Positions 31,447-36,896 of a stretch of 64,000 nt of DNA are shown piece by piece (within the stretch, counting starts at the first letter, position 1; each line of letters opens with the position of its first letter). Made by a program: the position numbers and the translations under genes. The notes beneath the pieces were generated by a model. The model ran no database searches and was not told the DNA's origin. It was given only the letters and a program-made list of their open reading frames with translations. The DNA comes from Butyricicoccus sp. OM04-18BH (GTDB taxonomy: Bacteria > Bacillota > Clostridia > Oscillospirales > Butyricicoccaceae), in contig NZ_QULN01000005.1 in assembly GCF_003481705.1 (NCBI RefSeq), forward strand, positions 132,215 to 196,214, in the 5' to 3' direction.

Positions 31447-34400
31447 TTACTTTTCCAGTTCGGTCCAGTCGCGGGTCTTGCGAAGCTTGGTCCACTTCTC
31501 GAACTTGTTCTCCTTGGTCTTGTAATAGTGGCTGTTGGTGGCCTCCTGTACCGCCAGATAGAACCACTGAGAAGCATCGGAATTATCCGGCCACTTGATC
31601 ATGCTGTCGAGCAGATCGCTGCTGTTCTCGGGCAGACGGTTGAGTACGCGGTTGACAAGCGTCATCGCCTCTGCGCGGGTGATATACTGGTTCGGACGGA
31701 ACGTACCATCCGGATAGCCGTTGATCCAGCCCTTGTTTGCGGCGATACCGATCTCATTCTTTGCCCAGTGAGATGCGATATCCGTGAACTTCGAGGACGT
31801 ATCCGTGTTCTTATCGTCGAAGCGAGCGGCGATTGCGGCAAATTCCGCACGGGTGATCGGCGCATTCGGCGCGAACGTGCCATCGTTATGGCCCTTCACA
31901 ATGCCCATCGAGGACAGCGTGGAGACAGCATGGTTAAACCACTGACCGCGCGTCACATCCGACAGGCTGTTGGACTGGGTGGAATTTGCGGTGCGGACTT
32001 CCTCGGTCAGCAGACGGAAGAAGATGGTTGCCACTTCTGCGCGGGTGATGTTGCCGTTCGGCTCAACGTTGCCGTTCGGGTAGCCGACGATGTAAGCATA
32101 ATGATCGTCACCGTTCAGACCGGTCGGTACATCATCCGGAATGGTAACGGTAGGCTTGCGGCCTCCGCCGCCACCGCCGCCGGAGGAGGATTTTTTCACG
32201 GTATAGGACACCGAAGGCTTCGGGAAGTCCAGAGGATTGAGCGGCGCACCGGCGCTGTTGATGGCGTTCAGAACGGCGCGCTTATTGGTGAACAGTGCCT
32301 TGTCGGCAGGAACATTCTTTTCGCCCTTCAGATCCTCCGTGCCGTAGGTGCCGGGGGCAGTTTCAGGCTTGGTCAGCTTGACGGTATAGGTCAGCTGAAC
32401 CGGCGCGAAGTTGGAGACGTTCTCGTTGATGGTCCAGACGAAGGCATCCGCAGTCGGATCGTACAGCACCTTGAAACGGCAGTTATTTTCACTCAGATTT
32501 TCGACATCATCACCGAAATAGGTCATGTTGCCGTTTGCCTTGGATTTCAGCTCCGTGCCGCCGACAGTCAGCTTCAGCGAGCCGGGAACAAAATCGAACG
32601 CATCGCCCATCTGGTCCTCCACCGTAGAGCCGGCGCTGACGGCGTAGAGGATGTCGTTCTGGATCTTGCCGAAGTCTACCGTTTGGCCATTGGCCAGGTA
32701 GCGCATAAAATCCGGACCCCAAAGATAGTCGGTCGGGCGTCCGTTAACAACTGCGTAGCAGTTGTATCCCGCCGCCTGTGCTTCCTGATAAACCTGATAG
32801 GTCAAATACAGAGCCTTATCAATGGAGTTCGCATAATTCTTAGAAGAATCATCCTCGGGAGTACATTCTGTTGCTGTTCCACCGTAAGGATATTCATATT
32901 TCGTGCCCTGAGCCTCAACCTGTTTACCAATCTCGGTCATCCGTGCAGACCAGCTAGCAGGAGGATTATTGCTGCCATATTTAGATTTCCAGTTGTCGGG
33001 GCCAGCCCAGTGTTTCCAGGCATCAGCAAAAAAACTCCATGCGGTAACAGTAGGCTCCGCATTATACATATAGGTAATACCATCACTTACGAAAATCAGG
33101 TATTTCCGATTTGCGGCAACTTCGGTATCCTCGTCCAGCAGCTGCTTGCCCGCAAGAAGTCCGGCGTGGGTGTTTGTTCCGCTTTCAATCGTTTGCTTGA
33201 TTGCGTTTTCAATGGTCTCGTAACCGGTAGCAAGATCTGTAAGCGGAGTTACGTTTGCCTGTTTATTGAAGATTACAACGCCGACCTTGACCTTTGCTTT
33301 CGTTTTTTCCGTCTGCTCTTTCAGCGCAGTAAGCATCTTCAGCGCCTGTTCTTCCATCTTTGCGCTCGTGGACTTATCCAGCACGAATACCACATCCGAT
33401 GCCAGCGCTTCCTCTGCACTCGGCAGAGACAGCGTCACATTGGAAGTCCAGGTGTTCGTATCCAGCGCCGTTGCGGTCTTGGATCGGGAAACGTTCCACT
33501 CAATGGGGTCGGTGCCGCCGGAGGAGTTTTTCGTAAAGGTCCAGACGCCGTGCAGCGTAAGGTCTGCGGTCAGCTGCTGCTCGCCGGTCAGAACCGTACC
33601 GTCATCCTTTTTCCAGCCGTTGAAAGAGAATGTACCGTTCACGCCGTCCTTCGAGCCGGACACGCTGGCCGGAACCTCTGCGACGGTGTAGCTGCTGCCG
33701 TTGACCAGCGTCTGCTTCGCCGGAGCGGTATAGCCTTCCGGCAGGTCGCCGGTAACATCATACGTCAGCGTGTACATCAGCGGATGCGCCGCCTTGAGCG
33801 TCAAAACGCCCTTCAGATCCGTGCGCTGCGTGTACGGAACCGCATAGATATCACCTTTTCCCGGATGCGCGTTCCAGCGTGCAGTTCCTTCGCCCATTTT
33901 ATCGCTGTCGATATACCAGTTGTCAACAGCATCACCGCAATCCAGTTTCCAGCTGTCAGCAGTTTCGCCTAACTGCACAGTGCAGCCTTCTGTGCCTACG
34001 CCAGTGGAATAAATGTCATCAGCCCGGACACTGGCATGGTTGTTGTAAATCGACGCCTGTTTCAGGTCAGCTTTGATACCATACGCAGAGGGATAGGAGT
34101 CAATATAAATACCGCCGCCCTGCTTTGCATGGTTGTCGGTTATCAGCACATCTCCCAGATTCAGAACGTCACGTACACCTGTTGCAATAGCAAGTTTTGC
34201 AGAATCATTTTTCTCTCCAATGTTGGCCTTCATATAGATGGCACCGCCATAGGTTTTAGCAGTATTACCGCTGATTGTACCTTTTTCGATGGTAACACCG
34301 CCGTAATTAGTTGCCCAAATTGCGCCACCTTCATAACCCGTTGTGGTGTTATTGGTGATAGTACCGTTCTTCATCAGAAAACGCGAACCATTACCGGTCA

Positions 34401-35217
34401 GATAAACTGCACCGCCGCGATAAGATGCCGTATTGCCGTCTATAATTGACTTGCCATCCATAATGAAAGTAGCAGTTACGCCTTTCCCACCATAGGCATT
34501 ATTAATTCCATCATGGAAAAGGGATGCACCTAAACCAACAGCACCACCGACAGACGCCGAGTTTCCGTTGAGTTTCGTGTCAACAATCTCACAAACGCAA
34601 TTATAGTATCCATCGTATGCCCAGCCCGACGCCAGATAAATAGCGCCGCCGCTAGCACCAGTAACCGTATTATCTCTGATTTCCGAGCCGGTAATCTTAA
34701 CATTTGCGGAACCACCGATATTTACACCGCCACCCGATGTAGCCGTATTCTTCTCGATGATGCAGTTTTCAATCTCAATATTACCTCTCTTGATGTCAAA
34801 ACCGCCGCCATTTGTTGCATGGCCGCCGGTGACAGTGCCGTTCTTGACGGTTACGTCCATATCTTTATCTTCGCCCGAAATGGAGACAACCGTTTTCTTG
34901 CCATCACCCGACAGCGTATACCCGCCGAGGTCAAGCGTCAGAGACCTGTTAATCTCGATATTTTCCGTAACATCATGGAGCATGACGATAGTGACATCGC
35001 TGTTTGCATCATAAATGTTTGCAGCATCAATCGCATCAGCAATAGTCGGATACTTGTTCTCACCGATCTTTGCAGCGTATGTCTGCCCTGCGGGCTGACC
35101 CTGACCTGTCGTATCCGGCGTATTTTCATCCGCTAACGCGAACGGAGACATTGCCAGCAGCATGGACGCCGCCAGTATACTGGCTAATAATCGCTTGTTC
35201 TTTCCTGTTTTCATCAT
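31447..35217 (-). CDS. Surface protein with beta-helix, vWA and C-terminal SLH domains
   Basis: A 1256-residue exported protein. Signal peptide 1-29 (ends PFALA). Residues about 50-430 form a right-handed parallel beta-helix (repeated NGTITNNTTTGYEGGAIW-like turns rich in GGAIY). A bacterial-repeat/InlB-like unit with FNGWKKDDGTVLTGEQQ follows (about 490-565). A vWA domain begins near 605 with DVVFVLDKSTSAK, holding an intact DxSxS MIDAS. A Gly-rich linker (about 1015) leads to three SLH domains (NITRAEVATIFFRLL, ITRAEFAAIAARF, ITRAEAMTLVNRVL). It is probably a cell-wall-bound adhesin. Two c-di-GMP-I riboswitches lie in its leader, so the second messenger controls its expression. The ribosome-binding site GGAGGG is directly after a hairpin. 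Confidence 0.88.
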   Translation of the reverse strand: MMKTGKNKRLLASILAASMLLAMSPFALADENTPDTTGQGQPAGQTYAAKIGENKYPTIADAIDAANIYDANSDVTIVMLHDVTENIEINRSLTLDLGGYTLSGDGKKTVVSISGEDKDMDVTVKNGTVTGGHATNGGGFDIKRGNIEIENCIIEKNTATSGGGVNIGGSANVKITGSEIRDNTVTGASGGAIYLASGWAYDGYYNCVCEIVDTKLNGNSASVGGAVGLGASLFHDGINNAYGGKGVTATFIMDGKSIIDGNTASYRGGAVYLTGNGSRFLMKNGTITNNTTTGYEGGAIWATNYGGVTIEKGTISGNTAKTYGGAIYMKANIGEKNDSAKLAIATGVRDVLNLGDVLITDNHAKQGGGIYIDSYPSAYGIKADLKQASIYNNHASVRADDIYSTGVGTEGCTVQLGETADSWKLDCGDAVDNWYIDSDKMGEGTARWNAHPGKGDIYAVPYTQRTDLKGVLTLKAAHPLMYTLTYDVTGDLPEGYTAPAKQTLVNGSSYTVAEVPASVSGSKDGVNGTFSFNGWKKDDGTVLTGEQQLTADLTLHGVWTFTKNSSGGTDPIEWNVSRSKTATALDTNTWTSNVTLSLPSAEEALASDVVFVLDKSTSAKMEEQALKMLTALKEQTEKTKAKVKVGVVIFNKQANVTPLTDLATGYETIENAIKQTIESGTNTHAGLLAGKQLLDEDTEVAANRKYLIFVSDGITYMYNAEPTVTAWSFFADAWKHWAGPDNWKSKYGSNNPPASWSARMTEIGKQVEAQGTKYEYPYGGTATECTPEDDSSKNYANSIDKALYLTYQVYQEAQAAGYNCYAVVNGRPTDYLWGPDFMRYLANGQTVDFGKIQNDILYAVSAGSTVEDQMGDAFDFVPGSLKLTVGGTELKSKANGNMTYFGDDVENLSENNCRFKVLYDPTADAFVWTINENVSNFAPVQLTYTVKLTKPETAPGTYGTEDLKGEKNVPADKALFTNKRAVLNAINSAGAPLNPLDFPKPSVSYTVKKSSSGGGGGGGRKPTVTIPDDVPTGLNGDDHYAYIVGYPNGNVEPNGNITRAEVATIFFRLLTEEVRTANSTQSNSLSDVTRGQWFNHAVSTLSSMGIVKGHNDGTFAPNAPITRAEFAAIAARFDDKNTDTSSKFTDIASHWAKNEIGIAANKGWINGYPDGTFRPNQYITRAEAMTLVNRVLNRLPENSSDLLDSMIKWPDNSDASQWFYLAVQEATNSHYYKTKENKFEKWTKLRKTRDWTELEK

Positions 35218-35264
35218 GAAAATCCCTCCTTCAGTAGCAATAGACTACTATGAAGAAGCTGCAT

Positions 35265-35350
35265 CAGGAAACCGGCTGCCATGCGGAAGACGGTCTTCCG
35301 TTTAGGCCCCTGGCTTTGCGAAACCGGCTTTCACCGATCGTGCCCTTGTC
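35265..35350 (-). ncRNA. Cyclic di-GMP-I riboswitch, proximal copy
   Basis: The minus strand contains CGCAAAGCCAGGGGCCTAAA, then CATGGCAGCCGG, the conserved GEMM-I core (CGCAAAGC, CCUAA, GGCAGCCGG) with both helices (GGAAGAC/GTCTTCC). It ends about 50 nt before the start of the surface gene. A hairpin (CTTCATAGTAG/CTACTGAAG) lies between it and the GGAGGG ribosome-binding site, a plausible expression platform. Confidence 0.88.
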
Positions 35351-35432
35351 TGTACAACTTACTCCTTAATGAGTAGCACAGATGATTGTGTTTTCCTTGG
35401 AACTGCTTCGGACAGTACAGAGACGATTCAGC

Positions 35433-35493
35433 TTCCAAATAAAATCCCCCCTTACAGTGCGCACAGCTCTGCAAGGAGGGTACAAAGTATCGT
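35433..35493 (-). terminator. Terminator-like hairpin between the two riboswitches
   Basis: After the distal aptamer the minus strand has CCCTCCTT pairing with AAGGGGGG, followed by ATTTTATTT. It could be the expression platform of the distal riboswitch. Confidence 0.6.
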
Positions 35494-35580
35494 CGGCAGC
35501 CGGCTGCCATGCGGAGGACAAGCTCCGTTTAGGCCCATCTGGCTTTGCGGCACCGGCTTTCACCGGCTGTGCCTTTATCT
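35494..35580 (-). ncRNA. Cyclic di-GMP-I riboswitch, distal copy
   Basis: The minus strand contains GCCGGTGAAAGCCGGTGCCG, CGCAAAGCCA, GGGCCTAAACGGA and CATGGCAGCCGGCTGCCG. It is very similar to the proximal copy (core segments nearly identical). Both lie in the same leader. The stretch 35581-35880 upstream has no other feature I recognise apart from the likely promoter region of the leader. Confidence 0.88.
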
Positions 35581-35897
35581 GTACCTGCACCCGTTCCCGA
35601 GAGTCATGCACAGATTTTCAGTTGAGGTCTGCTGTTTAAGACGATATGCGAAGGGCGCATACCGAACTTCGCTGCACGGACGGACAAAAAGTCCCGCGTC
35701 AGCGCTGTCTGGTCTTTCCTATCTAAAGTGTACCCCATTGCAGGCAGCTTTGTCAACCGTTTTTCCTGTAAAAGGAGGAAACTCCCGCAGCGCGCAGGCG
35801 GCGATGAATAAAGTTTACAAAAATTTTGTTTTTTCTCCTTTCAATCTCCTTTTAGATGGTATATACTTTCCCCATCACAGGAAAGGATAGAGAAACT

Positions 35898-36002
35898 ATG
35901 TTACACAGCAAAACAATGACGCAGGTCCTTAAGGCCTGCCCGGCAGAGGCGATCTGCTACCGGTACGGCTTCGGCAACGAAAAAACAAAGGAGAACTCAT
36001 AA
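35898..36002 (+). CDS. Small DUF1858-like protein or leader peptide
   Basis: ATG at 35898 with GAAAGGATAG upstream encodes 34 residues (MLHSKTMTQVLKACPAEAIC, then YRYGFGNEK). The pattern TMTQVLKACPAEAICYRYGF resembles the first helix region of DUF1858 domains (TVxEVLExxPExxxVLxRYGF), cut short. Its TAA directly abuts the ATG of the lipoprotein gene, so it may be a real short gene translationally coupled to it. A -10-like TATACT lies upstream at about 35863-35868. Confidence 0.5.
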   Translation: MLHSKTMTQVLKACPAEAICYRYGFGNEKTKENS

Positions 36003-36845
36003 ATGAATATCAAACGTGCAACCGCCCTTGCCCTCAGCCTGAGCCTGCTGCTGGGCGCCGCTGCGTGCGGCAAGTCCGGCTCTGAAGCTGCCGATACCGG
36101 CAGCAAGACCTCCGCGCAGCTGCTCGAGGAGGAAAACGCCATTCTCGGCGCACATCAGGAGCTGTGGGATCAGGTTTTCGCCTCCATGGACAAATCCTCT
36201 CCCGCAACGTCGAAAAACTACGGCGATGTCCTGCTGAGCGCGGTGGAGAACTGCAAGGACAAGCTCTCCGACGAGGATTATCAGACGCTGAAAAGCGATG
36301 CCGAGAGCATCCGCTCGATCGAAGAGCAGATCGCGGCCCTGCCCGCTGACGACAGCGCCGGCCAGAGCGAAACGGACGCGGCCAGTGCGTTTCCGGAGTT
36401 TACAGGCAAGGATCTCGACGGGAATGCGGTCGACAGCAGCCTGTTCGCGAACAACGCCTACACGGTCGTGAACTTCTGGTTCAGCGGCTGCAAGCCCTGT
36501 GTCGCTGAGCTGGGCGAGCTGGACAAGCTGAACCAGACCGCAAAGCAGCAGGGCGGCGAGGTGATCGGCATCAATACCGAAACGCTCGACGGCAACGCCG
36601 ATGCCATCGCCACCGCAAAGGATATCCTGCAAACCAAGGGCGCGACCTACCGCAATATCTATTTCGATTCCTCGAGCGACGCCGGCACGTTCGCCCTCGG
36701 CATCATGGCCTTCCCGACGACCTATGTGTTCGACCGGAACGGAAACGCAGTCGGCGAGCCGCTGCTCGGCGGCATCGACAACGCCGATAATCTGGCGCAG
36801 CTTCAGAAAAACATCGACGCCGCCCTCGCCGCCGATCAAAAATAA
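36003..36845 (+). CDS. TlpA-like thiol-disulfide lipoprotein
   Basis: A 280-residue lipoprotein. The signal peptide ends in a lipobox LGAAAC, so Cys22 would be lipidated and the protein held outside the membrane. Residues about 40-120 are a helical region (EEENAILGAHQELWDQVF). The C-terminal thioredoxin-like domain starts near 128 (FPEFTGKDLDGNAVDSSLF) and has the redox CxxC in NFWFSGCKPCVAELGEL, with the cis-Pro region IMAFPTTYVFDRNG. It is of the TlpA/ResA class that reduces or delivers electrons to extracytoplasmic thiols. It follows the 34-codon ORF without gap. No partner CcdA is adjacent. Confidence 0.9.
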   Translation: MNIKRATALALSLSLLLGAAACGKSGSEAADTGSKTSAQLLEEENAILGAHQELWDQVFASMDKSSPATSKNYGDVLLSAVENCKDKLSDEDYQTLKSDAESIRSIEEQIAALPADDSAGQSETDAASAFPEFTGKDLDGNAVDSSLFANNAYTVVNFWFSGCKPCVAELGELDKLNQTAKQQGGEVIGINTETLDGNADAIATAKDILQTKGATYRNIYFDSSSDAGTFALGIMAFPTTYVFDRNGNAVGEPLLGGIDNADNLAQLQKNIDAALAADQK

Positions 36846-36857
36846 GACAGAGCACAG

Positions 36858-36896
36858 TTAAGGCAACACCGCACAATTAAGCTCCGGTTGCCTTAA
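36858..36896. mobile_element. Miniature inverted-repeat element, 31 bp, copy 3
   Basis: A 31-bp unit GGCAACACCGCACAATTAAG...GGTTGCC (36862-36892) flanked by TTAA on both sides (36858-36861 and 36893-36896). Same left end as the element at 15935. Confidence 0.7.

Follow-up and report, generated by a model that had tools for sequence, protein, structure and literature searches.

Two c-di-GMP-I riboswitches with different predicted platforms in the leader of an SLH surface protein gene of Butyricicoccus sp. OM04-18BH

The stretch of DNA analyzed here, referred to as the window, comprises 64,000 nucleotides (nt) of Butyricicoccus sp. OM04-18BH (contig NZ_QULN01000005.1, positions 132,215 to 196,214) and contains on its minus strand a gene for a large surface protein that is preceded by two riboswitches of the cyclic diguanosine monophosphate class I (c-di-GMP-I) type. 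The gene (35217-31447, minus strand, delimited by its open reading frame) encodes a secreted protein of 1256 amino acids (aa) with a signal-like N-terminus, as judged by eye, and with matches to the Pfam families Beta_helix, SHIRT, VWA/VWA_2 and GBS104-like_Ig and to SLH in three stretches. This protein probably functions as an adhesin. Coordinates and Pfam matches thus agree with a preliminary description of this DNA, which had placed the riboswitches on the minus strand upstream of a beta-helix/vWA/SLH surface protein gene. The ATG start codon at 35217 lies 46 nt past the second riboswitch copy and is preceded by a good Shine-Dalgarno (SD) sequence, GAAGGAGG. A consensus scan of positions 34900-36100 identified a promoter-like sequence, TTGACA-18-TACACT, at 35756-35727 of the minus strand (10 of 12 matches), which is weak evidence considering that the scan produced two hits on both strands versus a mean of 1.0 in shuffled sequences. 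By the same weak criterion no further promoter-like site was found on the minus strand of this region, including the interval between the two copies, and both copies are therefore likely to be part of one transcript.

A cmscan search of the whole window against Rfam 15 at gathering thresholds returned exactly two matches, both to the c-di-GMP-I family RF01051. Copy 1 (35583-35492, minus strand) scores 67.5 bits (E 4.6e-11) and copy 2 (35354-35264, minus strand) 56.5 bits (E 2.3e-08), each aligned over model positions 1-87 of 87 and above the gathering score of 35 bits. The condition named beforehand as refuting the pair, a covariance score too low in either copy, thus does not refute it. The copies are separated by a gap of 137 nt and their starts by 229 nt, in line with the spacing of 140-230 bases reported before. 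In the cmscan alignment both contain the GAAA tetraloop, the CGCAAAG segment and the CC near the 3' end. Their earlier characterization as nearly identical is appropriate for the cores, but less so for the copies as a whole, which agree in 76 of 94 aligned columns. Both copies also carry a G at model position 11, which we take to be G20 of the Vc2 riboswitch. This ligand-contacting site is described as G in riboswitches that bind c-di-GMP and as A in those that bind cyclic AMP-GMP (PMC9481103). Since G occupies the selective position in both copies, they should respond to one and the same ligand, presumably c-di-GMP; cyclic AMP-GMP was rejected as ligand on this ground, and the suggestion that the pair provides two-input control finds no support. 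A steeper response, also suggested for the tandem arrangement, is possible.

The two copies form a tandem of the multi-platform type, with two complete units on the same strand, ahead of one gene, and a hairpin that can serve as expression platform after each of them, as had been described. The nature of these hairpins differs. Copy 1 is followed by an intrinsic terminator (35480-35437, minus strand; CCCUCCUUGCAG / CUGUAAGGGGGG followed by AUUUUAUUU) with a 12-bp stem of -22.4 kcal/mol and the U-tract AUUUUAUUU behind it. The presence of this terminator between the copies led us to reject a cooperative arrangement of the glycine type, in which two aptamers share a single platform. Behind copy 2 a hairpin of -14.4 to -14.5 kcal/mol (35258-35226, minus strand) sequesters the SD sequence AGGAGG (35230-35225), the core of which lies within the stem, with a mean unpaired probability of 0.16 in the local fold ensemble. 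Terminators were scanned for with the aptamer end included, a limit of -9 kcal/mol and two U-tract rules, the relaxed one asking for at least four U in eight positions, a custom procedure that has no shuffle control; under neither rule was a terminator found after window copy 2, where the U-run reads GAUUUUC and is directly followed by the AUG. By prediction, this anatomy would fit a bi-mechanism tandem, in which the first unit acts on transcription and the second on translation, although the counterpart of the copy 2 hairpin in a second species (see below) passes the relaxed terminator rule.

The same build occurs in a second species. In a pattern-based scan of 84,980 species genomes, one close relative of the protein was found, in Agathobaculum butyriciproducens DSM 100391 (genome G001, locus L001). 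Agathobaculum is a genus of gut commensals. L001 contains the same aptamer pair, with scores of 70.5 and 60.2 bits, in the same order and with matching platforms, including a counterpart of the copy 1 terminator. An alignment of the leader that begins upstream of copy 1 and extends into the start of the gene shows 84% identity between both species over 501 columns. The SD hairpin of copy 2 differs between them by three substitutions, namely a loop base, a U-G to U-A change and a bulged base, none of which breaks a pair; a fourth substitution, read from the alignment, falls just past the stem. Across species, copy 1 agrees with copy 1 in 83 of 92 columns and copy 2 with copy 2 in 81 of 91, while the sister copies agree in only 76 of 94 columns in the window and 76 of 92 in L001. 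For either copy the agreement across species thus exceeds that between sisters, and the duplication appears to predate the species split.

How the aptamers might govern these platforms is suggested by alternative pairings that involve four strands per unit: a strand upstream of the aptamer (strand 1, anti-P1), the 5' flank of the aptamer (strand 2), the 3' strand of helix P1 together with the 5' arm of the platform (strand 3), and the 3' arm of the platform or the SD sequence (strand 4). In both window copies strands 1 and 2 can form an anti-P1 hairpin. That of copy 1 (35615-35577, minus strand; z -3.0) pairs AUCUGUGC (35615-35608) with GUACAGAU (35584-35577), and its UCUGUGC arm is conserved in L001; that of copy 2 (35382-35349, minus strand; z -2.6) pairs UCUGUGCUACUC (35382-35371) with GAGUA and GUACAGA (within 35364-35349), and both of its arms are identical in L001. 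Five such units were folded: the two copies of the window, their two counterparts in L001 and, from contig C1 of G001, a single unit that precedes another secreted surface-type protein. All share the UCUGUGC/GUACAGA base under differing upper stems, with z-scores of -2.6 to -3.4. Alternatively, strand 2 can pair with strand 3. In copy 1, the strand GGGUGCA (35592-35586, minus strand) can pair with UGUACCC (35484-35478), which extends into the foot of the terminator, and a search of all upstream positions ranked GGGUGCA first among the partners of the terminator arm. In copy 2, the P1 3' strand and anti-SD arm CUGAUGCAGCUUCUUC (35267-35252, minus strand) has the 5' flank at 35364-35350 as alternative partner (-18.3 kcal/mol; shuffle p 0.0045 and 0.0070). 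In all four tandem units (two of the window, two of L001) the aptamer's own 5' flank is the best upstream partner of the platform 5' arm, with a runner-up just 0.3 kcal/mol behind in window copy 2 and in L001 copy 1. Pairing of strand 1 with 2 and of 3 with 4 is predicted to represent the OFF state, and pairing of strand 2 with 3 the ON state.

We consider it probable that the two copies are coherent ON switches for one ligand, the first acting by antitermination and the second on translation, so that the adhesin is produced at high c-di-GMP only. In the absence of c-di-GMP, the 5' strand of each aptamer would be retained in the upstream anti-P1 hairpin and the platform would fold, upon which the terminator of copy 1 would stop most transcripts and, in those that pass it, the hairpin behind copy 2 would hide the SD sequence. 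Upon binding of c-di-GMP, the aptamer would draw its 5' strand into an extended P1, which in copy 1 would take the 5' arm of the terminator, leading to readthrough, and in copy 2 the anti-SD arm, freeing the SD sequence. Full expression of the SLH/vWA adhesin would then require that both aptamers are occupied, with copy 1 deciding once per transcript and copy 2 acting during the whole lifetime of the mRNA. A broader formulation, to which we give somewhat less than even chances, is that Agathobaculum uses a four-strand relay whose platform is partly located upstream of the aptamer, that the anti-P1 hairpin sets the threshold, and that two relays in series constitute an AND gate for the same ligand over a variable SLH adhesin.

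Folding of growing transcripts is partly consistent with the ON direction. In transcripts of window copy 1 that lack strand 1, the antitermination helix is the minimum free energy (MFE) structure at +15 to +40 nt, although these folds, as those of copy 1 of the surveyed locus L066, start inside the anti-P1 hairpin and overstate P1; the antitermination fold was also obtained as a forced state. When strand 1 is part of the transcript, the difference between the ensembles forced into P1 or into anti-P1 ranges from -3.1 to +5.0 kcal/mol as far as +35 nt past the aptamer in the four units, and from +46 nt on the OFF state is ahead by 3.7 to 13.4 kcal/mol, values that are not strictly comparable between units as the forced P1 was 7, 4, 8 and 8 bp long in window copy 1, L066 copy 1, window copy 2 and L066 copy 2, respectively. 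A ligand that stabilizes P1 would thus have an interval in which to act, with OFF as the default. Forcing P1 in L001 copy 2 raises the mean unpaired probability of the SD sequence from 0.21 to 0.60, or to 0.54 with the extended P1.

Several results weigh against the mechanism proposed. In window copy 2 the effect of forced P1 on the SD sequence is modest (from 0.24 to 0.32, and to 0.51 with the extended P1). With strand 1 included, the MFE structure of window copy 1 has the anti-P1 hairpin at all eight lengths, that of window copy 2 has P1 at three of nine (+20 to +30 only) and that of L001 copy 2 at none of nine, in folds computed without a ligand energy. The pairing of strands 2 and 3 stands clearly above shuffled sequences in just two of the five units (p 0.0045-0.0070), namely copy 2 of the window and the single unit s3 of the relative, with p values of 0.06-0.15 in the other three, and the 5' flank tested against the platform arm alone gave p values of 0.045, 0.031, 0.31 and 0.061 in the four tandem units. 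In the five units the anti-P1 hairpin has the same 7 bp at its base, which thus provide no covariation signal. Furthermore, the leader is shared by just two species and only one of 87 genomes of the family matches it, and the SD hairpin of L001 copy 2 passes the relaxed (and only the relaxed) terminator rule, so that the copy 2 hairpin may also have a terminator role. Given these mixed folding and shuffle statistics, the ON direction is regarded as likely. The anti-P1 hairpin as a general feature of c-di-GMP-I riboswitches was considered and rejected, because at 61 loci of the order it was not in excess over control stretches: the mean z-score was -0.78 upstream of the aptamers versus -0.94 in the controls, and values below -2 occurred in 12 of 61 cases in either set. 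The P1 strand was paired as a 3' arm at 17 of the 61 loci and had in addition a z-score below -1.5 at six, four of them from G001. This set counts the loci of one array separately and was drawn apart from L023 (33.6 bits), L001, L035, L036 and regions L066-L087.

The adhesins themselves, compared between the window (31447-35217) and L001 (8415-11396), are mosaics. The C-terminal SLH part is 94% identical over 239 residues, and at the DNA level the SLH part and a stretch of the SHIRT region are 93% and 96% identical, respectively, with a diverged head; at an E-value of 0.001, Pfam returned no VWA, GBS104-like or Beta_helix match for the relative's protein. The riboswitch pair has thus persisted ahead of a target whose exposed part changed. 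DNA identity to the relative amounts to 86% for a hydroxylamine-reductase-like gene on the left flank (named by eye) and 88% for the ATP synthase genes, values that point to a close, Agathobaculum-like species, different from that of the relative, as the source of the window. In the relative, contig C23 carries this left-flank gene together with the riboswitch-adhesin locus and a thioredoxin-like gene, which is 69% identical to the one beside the window locus and perhaps not the same gene, and the ATP synthase genes are on another contig; the neighborhood is therefore at best partly kept. Close to the adhesin locus of the relative (L001:2569-6573) lies a gene for a 1334-aa SLH protein that scores 29.7 bits against the Aerolysin family, for which the cut-off is 24.3. 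A single c-di-GMP-I riboswitch of the same region (L001:6848-6936) directly precedes a transglutaminase-like gene, the 3' end of its aptamer (P1 3' region) running into the SD sequence; this position of the SD sequence suggests an OFF switch, and both senses may thus occur in the genus. The genome of the relative, the only one for which genome-wide counts were made, contains nine GGDEF and two EAL matches, which is in favor of the proposed c-di-GMP switch. In the window, about 30 bases at 36856-36888 match nine places of that genome with 94-100% identity and probably belong to a dispersed intergenic repeat.

Among the 87 genomes of the family, 17 had RF01051 matches above the cut-off, as did 82 of the 295 genomes sampled from the order. 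From the matches listed, 23 arrays (same strand, starts within about 350 nt) were picked by eye and considered together with the window, including one (L073) whose second match is just under the cut-off. Among the matches listed, each copy is followed by a terminator candidate in 13 of these 24 arrays (in L084 by a looser energy limit, -8.9 kcal/mol), six have one or more terminators followed by none before the start codon (the window, L066, the triplet L076, L080, L082 and L082b), and five have no terminator at all (L067 and L072-L075). In four of the six arrays of the second class (the window, L066, L076 and L080) the SD sequence is predicted to be mostly paired (mean unpaired probability of at most 0.16), with values of 0.31 and 0.27 in the other two. 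The bi-mechanism build is thus, among the matches listed, that of a minority and not unique to the window.

Some individual arrays, for which Pfam was run on ten downstream proteins, deserve a mention. In the L076 triplet (G310:C1:1428500-1433500) two terminators are followed by a hairpin that covers the SD sequence. The ATG of a gene for a beta-helix protein is located 37 nt downstream of copy 3, and this array may represent a second lineage with a transcription-then-translation build. Three doublets of one genome, L072 (G056:C105), L073 (C220) and L074 (C28), consist of RF01051 matches that overlap by 9-11 nt. This leaves no room for a platform in between and makes them candidate dual-aptamer, single-platform c-di-GMP-I switches similar to those for glycine; cmscan listed just one match for each of these loci, the second L073 match scores 34.8 bits and is under the cut-off, and the second L072 aptamer has UUA before GC, so its G20 position may differ. 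L072 precedes a 1012-aa open frame with a thioester (TED) domain, and a transglutaminase-like gene lies behind the L067 doublet. In L082 (601-1678, G223:C28) a c-di-GMP-I doublet is present twice, at a distance of 776 nt. The first lies ahead of a short frame of 75 aa, and the second is followed by the gene of a 422-aa LRR_5 protein whose N-terminus is similar.

Three other explanations of the window pair have to be weighed. The pair could be an ordinary pseudo-cooperative doublet in which both platforms act mainly on transcription and the copy 2 hairpin is a weak terminator that happens to hold the SD sequence. The 13 arrays with a terminator candidate after every copy would agree with this, as would the behavior of the L001 copy 2 hairpin under the relaxed rule and the related single unit of G001, in which the SD hairpin is followed by six U; in the window, however, copy 2 lacks a terminator under either rule, has its short U-run immediately before the AUG and holds the SD core in its stem, and we regard this explanation as unlikely. 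Slightly less weight is given to the idea that one or both copies are OFF switches through which c-di-GMP lowers expression. Flagellar targets of c-di-GMP-I riboswitches are known to be lowered in expression by c-di-GMP, and in the transglutaminase unit that neighbors the relative's adhesin locus the SD sequence follows the aptamer directly. Nevertheless, without ligand the platform hairpins form by default and are stable, and among the pairings found that would open them the aptamer's own P1 extension ranks best; both points speak against OFF switches.

The explanation we find most improbable by far is that the pair arose by duplication and one copy is now redundant or decayed. That the copies resemble each other in most of their columns, and that copy 2 scores about 10-11 bits lower in both species, could be read in this sense, but both copies have been kept well over the threshold and, as noted, each is closer to its counterpart across the species than to its sister. 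Two coherent ON switches acting at different levels are hence preferred to these alternatives.

Tandem c-di-GMP-I riboswitches as such have been described before and are common, with 347 doublets and 12 triplets on record (PMC9481103), and c-di-GMP riboswitches are described as enriched in tandem arrangement (PMC12452182). The latter source lists, among the Bacillota targets of c-di-GMP-I tandems, a transglutaminase-like gene, and states that the second riboswitch of a tandem may act on transcription or translation. The bi-mechanism type has been named for SAM-II/SAM-V and other S-adenosylmethionine (SAM) riboswitch pairs; c-di-GMP-I does not appear under this type in Table 1 of the same review, according to which tandems have not been comprehensively evaluated (PMC9481103). 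A literature search for bi-mechanism and c-di-GMP riboswitches yielded this review only, which, as the search covered open-licence literature, is a weak indication of absence. As in SAM-II/SAM-V, the first unit of the window pair has a terminator and the second would control the SD sequence in response to one ligand; in SAM-II/SAM-V, however, the ligand terminates transcription at the first unit and two aptamer classes are combined, whereas the window has one class and a predicted ON response.

The sections of the literature that deal with individual c-di-GMP-I systems of this kind offer further parallels. Bc3-5, a triple riboswitch of Bacillus thuringiensis that is described as turned ON through terminator loss (PMC4759541), likewise has several complete units of this aptamer class in its leader, with a platform after each, and resembles the antitermination predicted here, but its three units share one terminator mechanism, while in the window copy 2 would target the ribosome site and an anti-P1 hairpin is predicted upstream of each copy. 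Regulation by c-di-GMP-I at two levels has been reported for Bc1, which shows transcription-translation dual regulation (PMC11218506); Bc1 achieves this with one aptamer, two terminators and incoherent effects, in contrast to the two aptamers with one platform each of the window. Bc2 is located, as the window pair, ahead of the gene of a surface adhesion protein, a collagen adhesion protein (PMC4933901), but is described as one riboswitch in its leader instead of two. An anti-P1 stem is described in PMC11487190 for a thiamine pyrophosphate riboswitch. For c-di-GMP in Agathobaculum, no publication was found in the open-licence literature, which is likewise weak evidence of absence. What the window would add to these systems is the predicted division of labor between the copies and a lineage-specific anti-P1 hairpin on the 5' side.

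The purpose of stacking two copies of a c-di-GMP-I riboswitch is seldom easy to test. In the leader described here the copies seem to be mechanistically distinct and separable: in response to the same ligand and ahead of one adhesin gene, one copy would control the completion of the transcript and the other the access of the ribosome. This leader also provides a case in which some of the switch may be located 5' of the aptamer, and it points to a control of surface proteins by c-di-GMP in Agathobaculum.

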